Part shown: positions 3,534-51,127 of the stretch, in pieces | Layout: each line of letters opens with the position of its first letter | Numbering within the stretch: position 1 is the first letter of the stretch | Origin: Psychrobacter coccoides | GTDB taxonomy: Bacteria; Pseudomonadota; Gammaproteobacteria; Pseudomonadales; Moraxellaceae | NCBI RefSeq assembly: GCF_017498085.1 | Contig: NZ_JAGBKM010000003.1 | Coordinates: forward strand, 86,033-150,032 | DNA: 64,000 nucleotides | Direction: 5' to 3' | The notes under the pieces: generated by a model | What the model was told of the DNA's origin: nothing | Seen by the model: the letters and a program-made list of their open reading frames with translations, nothing else | Databases searched by the model: none | Made by a program: the position numbers and the translations under genes

Positions 3534-3707
3534 TAGGGCTTGTCCTCATTTTAAAAATGGAGATAAAAATGAGATAAATTGCCGCCAAACAAGGAAAATA
3601 GCGCAGATAATATCGGGATATTACCTAGCTATTTAACGCTGTTTGGCAAGATTTAGCCATTTTTAGCCCATTTAGGTATCCTTCGATTGAATTGAGGACA
3701 TGCCCTA
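3534..3707 (+). repeat. R1 inverted-repeat element (MITE-like), copy A
   Basis: A 170-bp core (3536-3705) is flanked by TA on both sides. The ends are inverted repeats of about 15 bp: GGGCTTGTCCTCATTTT at the left, and GGGCATGTCCTCAATTC reading inward from the right. The interior is itself an imperfect foldback: GCCAAACA pairs with TGTTTGGC, and AAAAATGG with CCATTTTT. No ORF. Near-identical copies lie at 45586-45759, 49703-49875 (inverted) and 50671-50844. It ends 4 bp before the yejA stop codon and so sits in the yejA-gloB intergenic mRNA. Confidence 0.85.
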
Positions 3708-3711
3708 GTCA

Positions 3712-5547
3712 TTACTGTCTTAAGTAGCTATCTATGCGTGCTTCTGCTTGTTTATCAACCCACCAATAGTCGATACCGACGGCATTGGTTGGTAGTTTTT
3801 TAGTATGACGGTATTGATTCCAATAAGCGACATTGGTCCCAGATTTGCCATATAACGGCACAACATAGTGCCCTGCTCGCAGCAGTCGATCAAGCACCTT
3901 GGTATACAGTATAATCTCGTCACGATTCTCAGCGTCGCCTAGCGCCGCTACAACCTCATCGATGACAGGGCTTTTGATACCGGCTGTATTTCTATTGCCA
4001 GCTTCATCAGCGGCACTACTGCCCCAAAATGCCGCTTGTTCAGCCCCCGGTGATAGGCTTTGGGCAAATACATCCACCACCATATCATAATCAAAGCGGC
4101 GCATACGCTCATAATATTGTGGCCCGTCTACTTGGCGTAGGGTCGCATCGAACCCCAAGCGCTTGAGATTACGAATATAAGGCAGTAGCACTCGCCCCAT
4201 GGTCTCACCTGTCATCAGCATCTCAATCCGTGCAAGCTGTCCATTGGGCTGATACAGTTTCATGTCATCATAGTAAAACCCAGCATCGAGCAACAGCCGC
4301 CTTGCTTTTAGCAGTCCATCACGATTAAAACCACTGCCATCGCTGGTTGGCAGCTGCCATTTCGCCAATACTGCACGGCGCTGTATCGGTTCAAGACTAG
4401 GCAACAAAGGGGTCAGCACCTGCATCTCAGCAACAGATGGCGTGCCCGTAGCGGCAAGCTCTGAGCCATGAAAGAAGCTTTGAAGGCGCTCATATTGATT
4501 GTGAAATAGCGTTTTATTCATCCATTCAAAGTCATAAGCGGCCGTCAAAGCTTGGCGTACGCGAATGTCTTGAAACAATGGTCGGCGCATATTCATGACC
4601 AATGCTTGCATCGGTACGGGGTTTTGACTGCTGATGCTTTCTTTATTGATAAGGCCCGCCTTTACTGCTGGGAAGTTATAACCCGTTGCCCAGTTAGAGG
4701 CTTTGTTTTCTGGACGAAAGCGATACTGACCAGATTTAAAGCCTTCAAAAGCAATCTCATCACTTTGATAATAGACAAACTTAATCCTATCAAAGTTATA
4801 TCTGCCCCGATTAACCATCAAATCACGTCCCCAATAGTTGGGGTCACGTATATAGTTGACCGAGCGCCCCGCATCGACCCGACCTAGCTGATAAGGGCCG
4901 CTACCCATCAATGGCGTTAAGCTGATCTTTTCAAAGTCAGCCTCGATAGAAGATTTGGCAAACACTGGAAACTGTCCAACGGTGAGCAAGATCTCTTTGT
5001 TATCAGCAGAAGCAAATACAAACTTCACCTGATGCTCGTCGATGACTTGTACCTCTTGGATATCGCTTAAGTAACTGCGAATATACATCGGTCCTTTAGT
5101 CAGAATGGCATCATAAGTGGCTTTGACATCATGGCTGGTCACAGGCGAGCCGTCCCAAAATCGAGCCGCAGGATTGATATGATAGACAATCCAGCTGGTG
5201 TCATCAGGGTCATAAGTCACCTTGCTTGCCAGCTGTGGATACATGGTAAAGGCTTCATTGAGTGAGCCTGTCATTAAGGTATCATACAGATAGTCGGTAC
5301 CGACCATCGCCACCCCCGTGGTCATCCATTTATTGGCCGCATTAAAAGTGCCACGTGCGTCCAGTGAGAGCGTGCCACCTTTAGGCGCCTGTGGATTGGC
5401 ATAAGGCATAAAAGGCACGTCAATATACTCAGTCGGACTATTATGACCAAGCGCCGTCGTGGTAATAGGTGCGGCTATGCTGGCTGGGATCCAACTGATA
5501 GCAACAGCAAACAATACCGCATTTAGCATGGCATTTTTTATTATCAT
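3712..5547 (-). CDS. yejA: Periplasmic peptide-binding protein YejA (extracellular solute-binding family 5)
   Basis: 611 residues, matching YejA/SBP family 5 proteins. The N-terminal signal peptide (hydrophobic LNAVLFAVAISWIPASIAA) is probably cleaved after about residue 26. The family pattern GGTLSLDARGTFNAANKW, YDTLMTGSLNE and the later YERLQSFFHGSELAATGTPS resemble YejA. It captures peptides in the periplasm for YejBEF. It is first gene of the minus-strand cluster yejA-gloB-yejB-yejE-yejF. About 236 bp, mostly R1 copy A, separate it from gloB. Confidence 0.92.
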   Translation of the reverse strand: MIIKNAMLNAVLFAVAISWIPASIAAPITTTALGHNSPTEYIDVPFMPYANPQAPKGGTLSLDARGTFNAANKWMTTGVAMVGTDYLYDTLMTGSLNEAFTMYPQLASKVTYDPDDTSWIVYHINPAARFWDGSPVTSHDVKATYDAILTKGPMYIRSYLSDIQEVQVIDEHQVKFVFASADNKEILLTVGQFPVFAKSSIEADFEKISLTPLMGSGPYQLGRVDAGRSVNYIRDPNYWGRDLMVNRGRYNFDRIKFVYYQSDEIAFEGFKSGQYRFRPENKASNWATGYNFPAVKAGLINKESISSQNPVPMQALVMNMRRPLFQDIRVRQALTAAYDFEWMNKTLFHNQYERLQSFFHGSELAATGTPSVAEMQVLTPLLPSLEPIQRRAVLAKWQLPTSDGSGFNRDGLLKARRLLLDAGFYYDDMKLYQPNGQLARIEMLMTGETMGRVLLPYIRNLKRLGFDATLRQVDGPQYYERMRRFDYDMVVDVFAQSLSPGAEQAAFWGSSAADEAGNRNTAGIKSPVIDEVVAALGDAENRDEIILYTKVLDRLLRAGHYVVPLYGKSGTNVAYWNQYRHTKKLPTNAVGIDYWWVDKQAEARIDSYLRQ

Positions 5548-5594
5548 GAGCCTATTCTAACCCTCTATAGTCGATACACTCTAAACATGTCATA

Positions 5595-5680
5595 GCGTTA
5601 CTGGGATGCTTTCTGTTCAAAATATAGGTTGCGCAGCATCGAAGGTACGCAGCACGCAAGTAAAATCTATACCAGTAGCA
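5595..5680 (-). repeat. R2 short palindromic repeat, copy a
   Basis: On the minus strand it reads GCTACTGGTATAGATTTTAC then TTGCGTGCTG, GCGCAACC and finally GCATCCCAGTAACGC. The same order of blocks occurs at 17151-17241, 22287-22370 and 47297-47388. The ends are inverted (ACTGG at one, CCAGT at the other). Non-coding. Confidence 0.75.
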
Positions 5681-5879
5681 CGTTTAAATCCATAACAGTT
5701 TTACATTCAGCTGACTATATAACACCACTCTTTTGGGCAGCAAAAATTGAAGTGTTGACTAAAAAATAGCCATATCGCAAAATTTTATCATAACAAACTT
5801 CAGTTTTTTAACCTAGCGGTTTGCAGTGTTTAGATTGCGACCGGCGGCACGATTGGTCTGCGCAAACGCCAATACTCAT

Positions 5880-12053: not shown

Positions 12054-12176
12054 TTGGACAAAAAAAAGCGACTCCATCAGCACATCCTCGGCACACATTG
12101 GATCTATTACCGTTGCTACCTTCCGGTCCTGGCGGGATTCATAGTACAATGTTGCGAGGCTACCAATGGAGCCACC
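12054..12176 (-). ncRNA. ffs: 4.5S signal recognition particle RNA (small bacterial type)
   Basis: The minus strand carries the domain IV hallmark CGCCAGGACCGGAAGGTAGC (SRP consensus CAGGUCCGGAAGGAAGCAGC). The RNA starts with GUGGCUCCAU near 12175 and its 3' portion AUGGAGUCGC (12077-12068) pairs with it over 10 bp, closing the rod-like hairpin. Length is about 109 nt to 12068, then a run of eight U to about 12060. The internal arm around GCAACAUUG / CAAUGUGUGC also pairs. It binds Ffh and targets nascent membrane proteins. A promoter is placed exactly for a start at 12176. A 105-codon reading frame over this locus is spurious. Confidence 0.95.
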
Positions 12177-17085: not shown

Positions 17086-17150
17086 CTATTGAGCCACCCT
17101 AAATCGCTATAGTCGATACTAAATAAAATGGATACGTTACTTAATAATGC

Positions 17151-17241
17151 GAAACTGGTATAAATTTTTCTAGCTTGCTGTGCCTACGCCGACAGAGGCT
17201 GCAAAACCAACATTAAAAAACTAAGCATCCCAGCTCCGCTG
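17151..17241 (+). repeat. R2 short palindromic repeat, copy b
   Basis: It starts AAACTGGTATAAATTTTTC and contains TTGCTGTGCC, ACAGAGGCTGC and AAGCATCCCAG in the order seen in the other R2 copies. It lies in the trpG-trpD intergenic gap of 242 bp, so it is probably transcribed within the trp operon. Confidence 0.75.
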
Positions 17242-17327
17242 TATCTTTTTCATATTAGACTGACTATAACACTCATCCAAACATATACCGATAAATACAA
17301 GAGATAATAACAAGCGAGACCATAATA

Positions 17328-18497: not shown

Positions 18498-19367
18498 ATG
18501 GCCCATTCAGATATACCCTCAGTACTACAACGCATTGTCAAAACCAAACAAGAGGAAGTACAGACTGCTCGTGCAGCACTGTCTCTTGAAGACTTACAAG
18601 CAAAAGTCGCTGCTGATAGCAAACCACGCCGAGGCTTTGCCGCAGCTCTACGAGCTGCCAGTGATCAAAAAAGCGGTATTGGCATTATCGCTGAGATAAA
18701 AAAAGCCTCACCTTCTAAAGGCATCATCAATCATAACTTCGCCCCAGCACTATTTGCTCAGCAGTATGAGCAAGCGGGAGCCAGCTGCTTGTCGGTATTG
18801 ACCGATCGTGATTACTTCCAAGGTGATGACAGCTATCTTATTGCCGCATCTAATGCCGTCAGCTTGCCTATACTGCGTAAGGATTTTATGATTAATGAGT
18901 ATCAAATATATCAATCTTATCTGATGGGTGCAGACTGCATACTGCTTATTATGGCGTGTCTTGATGATCGTCAAGCACATGAGCTGCATGCGCTTAGTAT
19001 TGAATTAGGCATGGATGTATTGATCGAAGTCCATACGCAGGCGGAGCTTGAGCGTGCCCTAAAACTCCCACGCTCAGCGCATAACATCTACGGTATTAAC
19101 AATCGTGACCTCAATACCTTTGACGTTGACCTGCAAACTACGCTCAATCTAAAGAACTTTTTGCTCGAAGCATTGGCTACTGATGCTGATGACACAGAGA
19201 AAAAACCACTTATCGTCACCGAAAGTGGGATTCGTAACAGTGATGATATTATCTTGATGCTAGATCAAGGTATTCAACACTTTTTGATCGGTGAGCAGTT
19301 TATGAAGACCGACCACCCTGGACAAGCGTTACAATCCTTACTTGCAGGCGCAGCAACAGACGAGTAA
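18498..19367 (+). CDS. trpC: Indole-3-glycerol phosphate synthase
   Basis: 289 residues, TIM-barrel enzyme that closes the indole ring of CdRP. Motifs: VLQRIVKTKQEEV (N-terminal helix), IIAEIKKASPSKGII (catalytic Glu/Lys), LSVLTDRDYFQGDDSYL, LPILRKDFMINEYQIYQS, GINNRDLNTFDVDL and VTESGIRNSDDI. Monofunctional: there is no fused TrpF. It is 66 bp downstream of trpD. Confidence 0.96.
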   Translation: MAHSDIPSVLQRIVKTKQEEVQTARAALSLEDLQAKVAADSKPRRGFAAALRAASDQKSGIGIIAEIKKASPSKGIINHNFAPALFAQQYEQAGASCLSVLTDRDYFQGDDSYLIAASNAVSLPILRKDFMINEYQIYQSYLMGADCILLIMACLDDRQAHELHALSIELGMDVLIEVHTQAELERALKLPRSAHNIYGINNRDLNTFDVDLQTTLNLKNFLLEALATDADDTEKKPLIVTESGIRNSDDIILMLDQGIQHFLIGEQFMKTDHPGQALQSLLAGAATDE

Positions 19368-22230: not shown

Positions 22231-22720
22231 ATCAAACCTCTTAGCTGTTGTATAGTCAGTTGAAAAAAACTGTCATAAGTTCAAAAGCGCCACTGGTATA
22301 AATTTTACTTGCGTGCTGTTATTACAGAGGCTGTGCAACCCATATTCTCAAACTAGCATCCCAGTGGCGCTGTAATGCTTTTAAATTGAATCTGCTATGG
22401 TGTGGCCACTACTCATAAAACCTGCTTATGATAACAATTATTTATCTCCCTAGTGGCTTTGATTGCAGGTTTTTATAGCCATACTTGTGCTTCCTTTTTA
22501 CGTTTAGTTTGCAACAATCATAATAAACCGCTGACATAAATAACAGTCATATCAGTGCTCAAATCCATGGATGGCAATTCGTCATGAAAATAACTCAGCT
22601 TACCGTGAAGAAACATTAAGTTAAATGAGTTTATAAAGGGGCAACTTTTATAGATAATAAGCCCTGCTTTACTCGTTTGTTTCTTTTGGTAATTCTGGCT
22701 TATTAATTCTTGGATGCTTT
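22231..22720. other. Intergenic region upstream of the TonB receptor gene
   Basis: 490 bp with no credible gene. It holds an R2 repeat (22287-22370). I looked for a cobalamin riboswitch (B12 box, GCCACTG and the GGGAA/GGTG core) and a clear Fur box. Neither is convincing. Confidence 0.6.
22287..22370 (+). repeat. R2 short palindromic repeat, copy c (best preserved)
   Basis: 84 bp with perfect 10-bp terminal inverted repeats: GCGCCACTGG (22287-22296) and CCAGTGGCGC (22361-22370). Internal blocks TATAAATTTTACTTGCGTGC and AGAGGCTGTGCAACC match copy a. Non-coding. Confidence 0.85.
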
Positions 22721-28349: not shown

Positions 28350-28667
28350 TAAACGATTTCTTTATAGTCAACACACGCTAAAAATATAGCACGGCTGGCA
28401 AGCTGTTTTTAATATCAGCTACGTCACCTTTGACAACGCAGCACGCCAGTAACGTTTATCTCAGTAGCAGCTTTACATTTATCTCACAGCTTGATGTTAA
28501 CTGCCTATAGGTTTTGCAGCTATAGACAAGGAATTTTAAAATCGCTACAAGGCGACCGACCGCAGATAGTACACTAAGTACATCTAGGGCGGGTAACACC
28601 GTAGCGGTTTAAAAGTGCTCCGACTATATCTGACTTTGGGCCCCATATTTTATACTTGAGCATTATC
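28350..28667. other. Intergenic region with R3 repeat
   Basis: 318 bp between rsmE and the GGDEF/EAL gene. It holds R3 copy b (28522-28627). Nothing else recognisable. Confidence 0.6.
28522..28627 (+). repeat. R3 inverted-repeat element, copy b
   Basis: 106 bp, same length and orientation as 12427-12532 with about 10 differences. The internal block GATAGTACACTAAGTACATC is identical in both. Ends ATAGAC and GACTAT; one end has a mismatch. It lies 40 bp upstream of the GGDEF/EAL start. Confidence 0.85.
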
Positions 28668-45281: not shown

Positions 45282-45838
45282 TTTAACTAACTTCCTTATT
45301 TTAGTCTTAGAATCTGATTAAACATCAGATATTATTATGTTTTTTATAAGAGACAGTGTGGTTAAGTATAACATCTCAATAGTAGATAGCACTTGAAGCC
45401 CTGCTGATCTGTACACAGATAATACAGACAGCGTGACTGATGCGCTGATGATTGTCACTAAAAAAATGCCGGAATGTGCTACACTTTCGCATCCGATTGC
45501 AGCAGCAACTGATATCTTAATGGGGCTTTTTTGTCGCTGCGATTTAGACCGTGTGAGCCGCAGCCCGTTTAAAAGACCGCTTTACTAGGGCCTGTCCTCA
45601 TTTTAAAAATGGCGATAAAAATGAGATTAATCGCCGTCAAACAAGGAAAGTAGCGCAGATAATATCGAGATATTAGTCAGCTATTTGACACCGTTTGGCC
45701 AGATTTAGCCATTTTTAGCCCATTTAGATGGCTATCGATTGAATTGAGGACACGCCCTAGCGTTCGCACGTCTTATGAGCAACCGCTCGTATCAATGTTG
45801 ACATACCCTATACCGACTTTTGGAAAATCTAAGCACTC
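45282..45838. other. Intergenic region between pdxA and dnaB
   Basis: 557 bp between divergent genes. It holds R1 copy B (45586-45759). No ORF or RNA gene recognised. The dnaB promoter would lie in the last 80 bp, but I could not assign it. Confidence 0.6.
45586..45759 (+). repeat. R1 inverted-repeat element (MITE-like), copy B
   Basis: 170-bp core (45588-45757) between TA dinucleotides. Same orientation as copy A. Ends GGGCCTGTCCTCATTTT and, read inward from the right, GGGCGTGTCCTCAATTC. Ends 79 bp before the dnaB start. Confidence 0.9.
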
Positions 45839-49663: not shown

Positions 49664-49984
49664 TAAGCTATCGCTGTTATACAGAAAGGCAGATTACATG
49701 TATAGGGCGTGTCTTCAATTCAAATGATGATATCTAAATGGGCTAAAAATGGCTAAATTTTGTCATACTGCGTCAAATAACTGGTTAATATCCCGATATT
49801 ATCTGCGTTATTTTCCTTGTCTGACAGCAATTTATCTCATTTTTATGACCATTTTTAAAATGAAGACACGCCCTAAGTAATCTGCCTTTTTATATGCTCA
49901 AGATTTAAGATTATATCAAACCCAGCTTTTGTAGGGTGCGCCCAGCGCACCTGAAAGTCTGCGAATGGTTTAATAATAATTACT
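49664..49984. other. Intergenic region between argF and rpiA
   Basis: 321 bp between convergent genes. It is dominated by R1 copy C (49703-49875). No standard terminator is visible; the R1 foldback could act as one. Confidence 0.55.
49703..49875 (-). repeat. R1 inverted-repeat element (MITE-like), copy C
   Basis: 169-bp core (49705-49873) flanked by TA, in inverted orientation to copies A, B and D. Ends GGGCGTGTCTTCAATTC and, from the other side, GGGCGTGTCTTCATTTT. Both carry TCTTC where the other copies have TCCTC, so the two ends changed in step. Confidence 0.9.
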
Positions 49985-50644
49985 CTAACGCATGATTGTC
50001 TCAACGCCATTATCGCCAGCTTTTAGCAGCACATCAGCTTGGTTGGCTGCAAAAATACCATTGCACACCACCCCAACGATATTGTTGAGCTCTTTTTCTA
50101 ATGCGATAGGATTACTCACATCCAAGTCATAGACATCTAAAATGACATTGCCATAATCAGTGACAAAACCTTCACGATATACTGGCTCTGCACCCATTTC
50201 CGCAAGTTGCCTTGCCACGTAAGAACGTGCTTGTGGCAACACTTCAATTGGTACTGGAAAATTTCGGCCCAATATATCGACACGTTTGCTATTGTCCACC
50301 ATACAAATAAACTTTTTGGAAGCGGCAGCGACGATTTTTTCTCGAGTAAGCGCTCCACCACCACCTTTGATCAATTGTAGGTGTTCATTGACTTCATCTG
50401 CGCCATCAATATAGACATCAAGCGTGCCAGCAAAGTTTAAATCAACCACATCAATCCCAAGTGCTTTTAGTCTATCTTCAGTGACTTGCGAGCTGGCAAC
50501 CGCACCTGCTAGCTTGACGGTTGGTAACAGCTCAATCAAACAGTTCACCGTGCTACCCGTCCCTACGCCCAGTATCATGCCATCTTCGATGTACTGTAGG
50601 GCTGCTTTGGCAGCAGATTTCTTTTGTGTTTGCTGATCACTCAT
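49985..50644 (-). CDS. rpiA: Ribose-5-phosphate isomerase A
   Basis: 219 residues. Interconverts ribose-5-phosphate and ribulose-5-phosphate. Motifs: [59 protein letters not shown] 50644 (MSDQQTQKK) with AAGGA upstream. The frame continues to 50725 into the R1 element, which is spurious. The gene is bracketed by two R1 copies, in opposite orientation. Divergent from ilvA. Confidence 0.96.
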
Positions 50645-51127
50645 TATAAATCCTTGGCAACGTAAAATATTAAGGCGTGTCCTCATTTTAAAAATGAAGA
50701 TAAAAATGAGATAAATTGCCGTCAAACAAGGAAAATAGCGCAGATAATATCGGGATATTACCTAGCTATTTAACGATGTTTGGCAAGGTTTAGCCATTTT
50801 TAGCCCATTTAGGTATCCTTCGATTGAATTGAGGACACGCCCTAGAGCATGCTGAATATTAAGGTCTATGTATGACCACTTATAGCGGCCATACCTGCTA
50901 TTAATGCGCCGCTATTATAACCGATGGCCCTCATGGTGTCAGCGCTGTATTTTGACAAAAAGACATCTGACTTTATCTAGAGTGTTTTCTATGAATTCAA
51001 CCGGGATTCATGCTCTGTTATAAAAACCACTGTAAAATTTGCAATTGAGCCTTGCAAGATAAGCAAAATCAGCATAGGCTAATCTATTTCATTTTTATCT
51101 CCACTTACTGCCTATTTAGGAATTATT
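50645..51127. other. Intergenic region between rpiA and ilvA
   Basis: 483 bp between divergent genes. It holds R1 copy D (50671-50844), 27 bp from the rpiA start. The remainder has no clear promoter match. Confidence 0.55.
50671..50844 (+). repeat. R1 inverted-repeat element (MITE-like), copy D
   Basis: 170-bp core (50673-50842) flanked by TA. Left end AGGCGTGTCCTCATTTT, one mismatch to the family. Same orientation as copies A and B; interior nearly identical to copy A. Confidence 0.9.

Follow-up and report, generated by a model that had tools for sequence, protein, structure and literature searches.

R1, a genus-wide family of TA-flanked foldback MITEs in Psychrobacter with a probable autonomous partner in the IS427 group

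R1, a repeat present in four copies in the DNA analysed here (the window, 64,000 nucleotides of Psychrobacter coccoides), is very probably a MITE moved by the transposase of an IS427-group IS that has the same 15-bp ends, and inserting at Y-TA-R, that is, at a TA preceded by C or T and followed by A or G. Its make-up is that of a MITE: it is short and contains no transposase gene, it is bounded by 15-bp terminal inverted repeats with a TA duplication, as observed at four elements of relatives, and it has its ends in common with an autonomous transposon, an IS427-group IS ending in TAGGGCGTGTCTTCAATT. The shared ends and the pairs of empty and filled sites thus support the reading of the initial annotation, which had taken R1 for a non-autonomous, TA-duplicating MITE. 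R1 is a real, genus-wide MITE family, newly recognised, of a kind of element already known; in the open subset of PubMed Central, no title or abstract start among the matches listed describes this MITE. The ends, the target and the gene plan point out its probable autonomous partner.

All four copies in the window lie where the initial annotation had placed them (Table 1); the length of 169-170 bp given there leaves out the flanking TAs, with both of which the copies measure 173-174 bp. Copy 3 belongs to a different subfamily and has the opposite orientation, its identity to copy 1 being that obtained after turning. Copy 1 is flanked by two co-directional ORFs on the minus strand, the stop codon of one of them (3712..5547) lying 4 bp beyond the end of the element, and copy 4 overlaps the start of a mechanically listed ORF (49985..50725). 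A scan of the window for the end motif TARGGCNTGTCYTCA, allowing up to two mismatches, returns the eight ends of the four copies, all with 0 mismatches, and a single unpaired two-mismatch site at 18950; there is no further exact end motif in the window, and ten Markov-simulated windows contain no exact match at all. The four-copy repeat far exceeds chance. That the window holds no matching transposase, as had been remarked, stands as well: neither DDE_3 (18 genome matches, all 21 candidates scored) nor IS427-type matches (40 of 57 genome candidates scored) fall inside it.

Table 1. Position of the R1 copies in the window and of the terminal inverted repeats of copy 1.
Feature	Position	Strand	Remarks
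R1 copy 1, CCTCA end type	3534..3707	+	174 bp including both TAs
Left terminal inverted repeat of R1 copy 1, TAGGGCTTGTCCTCA	3534..3548	+	
Right terminal inverted repeat of R1 copy 1, TAGGGCATGTCCTCA	3693..3707	-	
R1 copy 2, CCTCA type	45586..45759	+	174 bp; 88-89% to copy 1; divergent intergenic
R1 copy 3, CTTCA type	49703..49875	-	173 bp; 87% to copy 1; between convergent ORFs
R1 copy 4, one end TAAGGC	50671..50844	+	174 bp; 96% to copy 1; divergent intergenic

The genome (3.05 Mb in 85 contigs) yields at least 41 BLAST matches to copy 1 at 40 places, one copy being split in two; these counts are a floor, from the 40 candidates scored out of 85. Apart from the two pieces of the split copy, the matches are 85-100% identical to copy 1. 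Genome-wide, TARGGCNTGTCYTCA occurs 94 times, against 0 for a reversed control. In the genome stretches examined, the pairing of ends yields 51 R1 elements (lone or truncated ends, and elements stopping at contig ends or N gaps, are excluded from this set): 45 are 172-175 bp long, another measures 164 bp, and the other five are short forms (39, 40, 51, 61 and 63 bp). Among 25 genus genomes, the present one counted, 22 have BLAST matches to R1, as against none of 13 genomes from other genera of the order; the named hosts of the transposases nearest to the candidate IS agree with the genus being Psychrobacter. The end motif is present in 99 of 105 genus genomes, with 0 to 263 matches each, and the reversed control has no match in any of the 105. 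Two R1 half-copies are joined to other sequence by 50-N scaffold gaps (L031, 2472-2521; L041, 2447-2496), the partner across the gap in L031 being an IS630 copy; such joins could mislead annotation.

When the joined flanks of 101 elements are probed against the loci examined, 24 give a spanning match, 15 of these only at their own locus. The remainder comprises four clean orthologous empty sites, two sites that are diverged or carry indels (window copies 1 and 3), one without a TA (L080, where the site in relatives of 79-82% identity is not TA), and the probes of L021 and L022, which matched another repeat family and not an orthologue. The four clean sites are filled in G107 and empty in G082, G073 and G044 (98% over 162 bp); filled in G079 and empty in G075 and G080 (95% over 162 bp); filled in G022 and empty in the present genome (91% over 158 bp); and occupied by a 45-bp short form in G077 and empty in G022, G103 and G069 (90% over 155 bp). 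All four have a single TA when empty and two when filled. The initial annotation had staked its reading on empty TA sites in related strains and on an IS with matching ends in the genus; both exist, the empty sites at family copies other than the four of the window. At copies 1 and 3 the spacers of relatives lack the insertion, but are too diverged for a clean empty site at the nucleotide level or contain indels: for copy 1, 15 of 29 relatives' loci can be aligned, none of which has this insertion and three of which carry an R1 copy with other flanks, and for copy 3 the relatives share the terminator-like flank hairpin without R1, with indels. The joined-flank probes of copies 2 and 4 have no spanning match.

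The candidate parent emerges from a long-distance scan for end pairs, run on genomes with few R1 copies. In G046, G063 and G100, ends are paired 844-847 bp apart and enclose an IS of the IS5 family, IS427 group, whose ends are TAGGGCGTGTCTTCAATT and whose genes are orfA (DUF4096) and orfB (DDE). In the copies of G046 and G063, two frames overlap at a T9 run, a plan that agrees with the one described for ISPssp5 of the IS427 group (PMC6514802); the TA target and the ISPssp5-like ends also assign the element to this group. Of G100, two copies were read, one with a T8 and one with a T9 run, and their frames are placed differently. The two genes are presumably expressed as a fusion through frameshifting on the T run. 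Of the G063 genes, orfA has a match to PF13340 (E 9e-23) and orfB one to PF01609 (E 2e-21); against NCBIfam NF033580 (IS5 family), orfB scores 186.8 bits, above the cut-off of 110, and orfA 84.6, below it. Matches to this IS at E<=1e-20 occur in at least 48 of 105 genomes, with four candidates scored per genome and fragments and diverged relatives down to 71% identity taken in. Three lineages of the IS can be told apart by their ends: the first has CTTCA at both, with some variants, and is 91-100% identical to the query; the second has CCCTA on the left and CCTCA on the right (82-83%); the third has CCCTA at both (about 74%).

R1 and the IS are identical only over the terminal 15-20 bp or so, and R1 is thus not derived by simple deletion from any of the IS examined. 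In the present genome the only IS match is an 81-bp end fragment (C67:23602-23682; 40 of 57 candidates scored), and G101, the most end-rich genome with 263 end matches, has no IS match among the four candidates scored. Among the full-length R1 copies here, 24 of 42 are of the CCTCA type and 11 of the CTTCA type; the best-preserved IS lineage is of the CTTCA type, and among the IS ends CCTCA is confined to the right end of a lineage that is more diverged. From the sequences we infer that an IS427-group transposase moves R1: it would recognise R1 by its inverted repeats and place it at Y-TA-R, duplicating the TA, and amplification in this genome would have used an IS that has since been lost, leaving the end fragment, or that is missing from the draft assembly.

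The initial annotation had left the transposase open between an IS630/Tc1-like and an IS5-type enzyme; the ends bear out the latter, in the form of the IS427 group, and speak against the former, whose ends are different. An IS630 element is nonetheless a tempting parent, as it also duplicates TA, as the genome has 18 DDE_3 (IS630-type) matches, and as one R1 half-copy abuts an IS630 copy. However, that abutment is the 50-N scaffold gap, the IS630 ends in L087, L092 and L095 are TATAGTCAGTTC and do not match those of R1 (GGGCNTGTCCTCA), and the 15-bp ends of R1 are those of IS427-group elements; an IS630/Tc1-type parentage of R1 is thus hardly credible. The 7-bp motif TATAGTC of the IS630 ends is itself found in the window in inverted pairs 154-266 bp apart (5566-5719, 17108-17268, 28363-28628) and as single sites, for example at 22251. 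Some of these may belong to a further repeat family; 7 bp are few enough to recur by chance. The R1 copies in L021 and L022 sit in sequence resembling window 17096-17201, and the copy in L025 is interrupted by an insert with similar ends.

Among the named IS met in this work, the closest to the IS427-group candidate is ISPssp5, described from plasmid pP32BP2 of Psychrobacter sp. DAB_AL32B as an IS5/IS427 element of 837 bp with the ends GGGTGTGTCATCAATTA (IRL) and GGGCGTGTCATCAATTA (IRR) and a TA direct repeat (PMC6514802). It has two overlapping ORFs, ends of the form GGG(T/C)GTGTCATCAATTA and a TA duplication, like the candidate IS, but ATCA where R1 and the candidate have CTCA, TTCA or CCTA; it is autonomous, unlike R1, and the comparison is one of described ends and plan (PMC6514802). 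Close Moraxellaceae transposases, at 79% identity to orfB, are assigned by their sources to the IS1301 family; these IS5 elements of Neisseria and Moraxella are autonomous, unlike R1, their likeness being one of names and protein identity. IS1301 prefers AYTAG targets. Multicopy intergenic repeats that are short and flanked by TA are also known from Neisseria (Correia elements) and from Streptococcus pneumoniae (RUP), with ends and parents other than those of R1. In the Moraxellaceae, MITEAba12 of Acinetobacter and one Moraxella osloensis, 113 bp long, is described with GGCTTTGTTGCACAAA ends and a 9-bp duplication, and is, like R1, identical to its proposed IS (ISAba12) only at the ends (PMC6382973); R1, with its own ends and its TA duplication, is not of this family.

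The target is narrowly defined. Y-TA-R flanks surround 46 of the 51 elements of this genome and 47 of 50 at the loci examined in relatives; of the 971 intergenic TAs in the window, 229 are of this form (counted with gene coordinates from the mechanical ORF list). The rule holds for all 17 IS copies of which both ends could be resolved, 13 further rows with variant or missing ends being left out; MITE and IS thus have a common target preference. With ORFs of at least 90 aa called on virtual empty sites, none of the 51 elements lies inside an ORF: 23 are between tandem, 21 between divergent and 7 between convergent genes. The classes largely track intergenic length in the window (4933, 3658 and 1181 bp, respectively), with no further preference for gene orientation. 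The window has 630 coding and 229 intergenic Y-TA-R sites, so that even insertion over these would put most copies in genes, and selection or site choice therefore keeps R1 intergenic. In five of the 51 (L007, L009, L247, L248 and L250), the TA is part of a stop codon; because R1 begins with TAG, the stop would be re-created on insertion. Copy 3, which has convergent ORFs on either side, lies within the loop of a strong hairpin resembling an intrinsic terminator (49680-49900; -22.1 kcal/mol for the joined flanks), and a G107 copy (L148) sits likewise in a hairpin loop (-23.0 kcal/mol). These two hint at a preference for terminator hairpins, which the flanks overall do not show (mean energy -5.75, against -5.63 when swapped, sd 0.33).

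The interior, noted as a foldback in the initial annotation, folds in copy 1 into one long, strongly stable hairpin, both as DNA (-39.4 kcal/mol, z -8.2) and as RNA (-65, z -6.9); in neither case does any of 200 shuffles reach this stability. Such a hairpin could be selected for a function in the host, which might use R1 as a terminator, as an mRNA-end hairpin or as a carried regulatory site. The conservation of the pairing agrees with this: in 82 distinct copies, 93.2% of 5,551 cells are paired, against 27.8-49.2% with slid partners, and 23 of 68 pairs show double changes, against 11-18 when slid. This test projects the single-sequence structure of copy 1, which it favours, because RNAalifold returns only a partial hairpin of 24 pairs from the 82-sequence alignment. 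The retention of the core between genera and the lack of insertions in called ORFs point in the same direction. On the other side, the context classes follow intergenic length, the flanks have no hairpin preference, R1 sites turn over between species, and R1 matches no Rfam family at the gathering threshold; use by the host is thus very unlikely to be what maintains the foldback. The one gathering-level Rfam match in the window is the bacterial small SRP RNA (RF00169, 72.3 bits, 12072-12168, minus strand).

Paired elements of 39-92 bp number 17, five here and 12 in relatives. The simpler reading is that they arose by deletion in place, and all 17 have been fitted as internal deletions, three of them poorly (8-12 mismatches). 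They might instead form a separate, independently mobile family, as the 51-bp forms of G040 and G101, although at separate loci, are identical, with similar ones in G043 and G063, and as the 45-bp form of G077 sits at a TA that in G022, G103 and G069 has no insert. Microhomology at the best-fit junction is 0-1 bp in 4 of the 17, but 2-7 bp in the other 13 (at least 4 bp in 8 of the 17), a TGAG/CTCA repeat recurs in four of the six 51-bp forms, and insertion of a full-length copy followed by its shrinkage would account for the G077 site equally well. Independent mobility is thus rather unlikely, and deletion in place is preferred.

The full-length elements carry one conserved core with three end types (CCTCA, CTTCA and CCCTA), usually alike at both ends; all three types recur on one or both ends of some IS427-group IS. 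Of 110 full-length candidates chosen by their ends, 94 keep the core motif and 16 were dropped; the 94 comprise 42 from this genome, 47 from relatives and 5 of the Moraxella type. End positions 11-15 are alike at both ends in 83 of the 94, where a fraction of 0.537, or about 50, is expected; the free end position 7 is alike in 67, close to the expected 0.681, or about 64. Conversion between the arms is not favoured as the origin of the matched ends, since the excess is seen at positions 11-15 and not at the free position 7; much of it is accounted for by common descent within a few subfamilies. On a tree built from the interior only, the end class changes at least six times, against a mean of 19.07 and a minimum of 16 in 200 label shuffles (the 11 mixed elements were ignored, and many nodes are weakly supported). 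Three plasmids of Moraxella osloensis carry R1 relatives of 75-77% identity, and those read end in CCCTA; on pMOXF1, an IS5 element annotated as IS1301 family lies about 23 kb from the R1 relative, with CCCTA on the left and CCTCA on the right. CCCTA at both ends is also found within the genus (L264, L269, L274 and L287), two of these elements having passed the core filter. An R1-type element at 2080-2253 of BMPS01000033.1 (L294) is 98% identical to a Moraxella osloensis plasmid copy; the contig is titled Streptomyces cinereus, has 39.6% GC in 8 kb and is probably a contaminant.

Repeated, concerted switching of both ends on a conserved core is supported by these patterns but unproven, shared descent, recombination between copies and selection by the transposase being unseparated. 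As a tentative extension, on balance doubtful, the foldback core could act as a reusable scaffold that changes both ends together and may be moved by different IS427-group transposases. For a repeat very common in the genus, with its motif in 99 of the 105 genomes, a candidate mover can now be named, and the sharp Y-TA-R rule for insertion gives a testable target. If the scaffold reading is true, the matched end types would provide a natural system in which to see how non-autonomous elements follow changing transposases.
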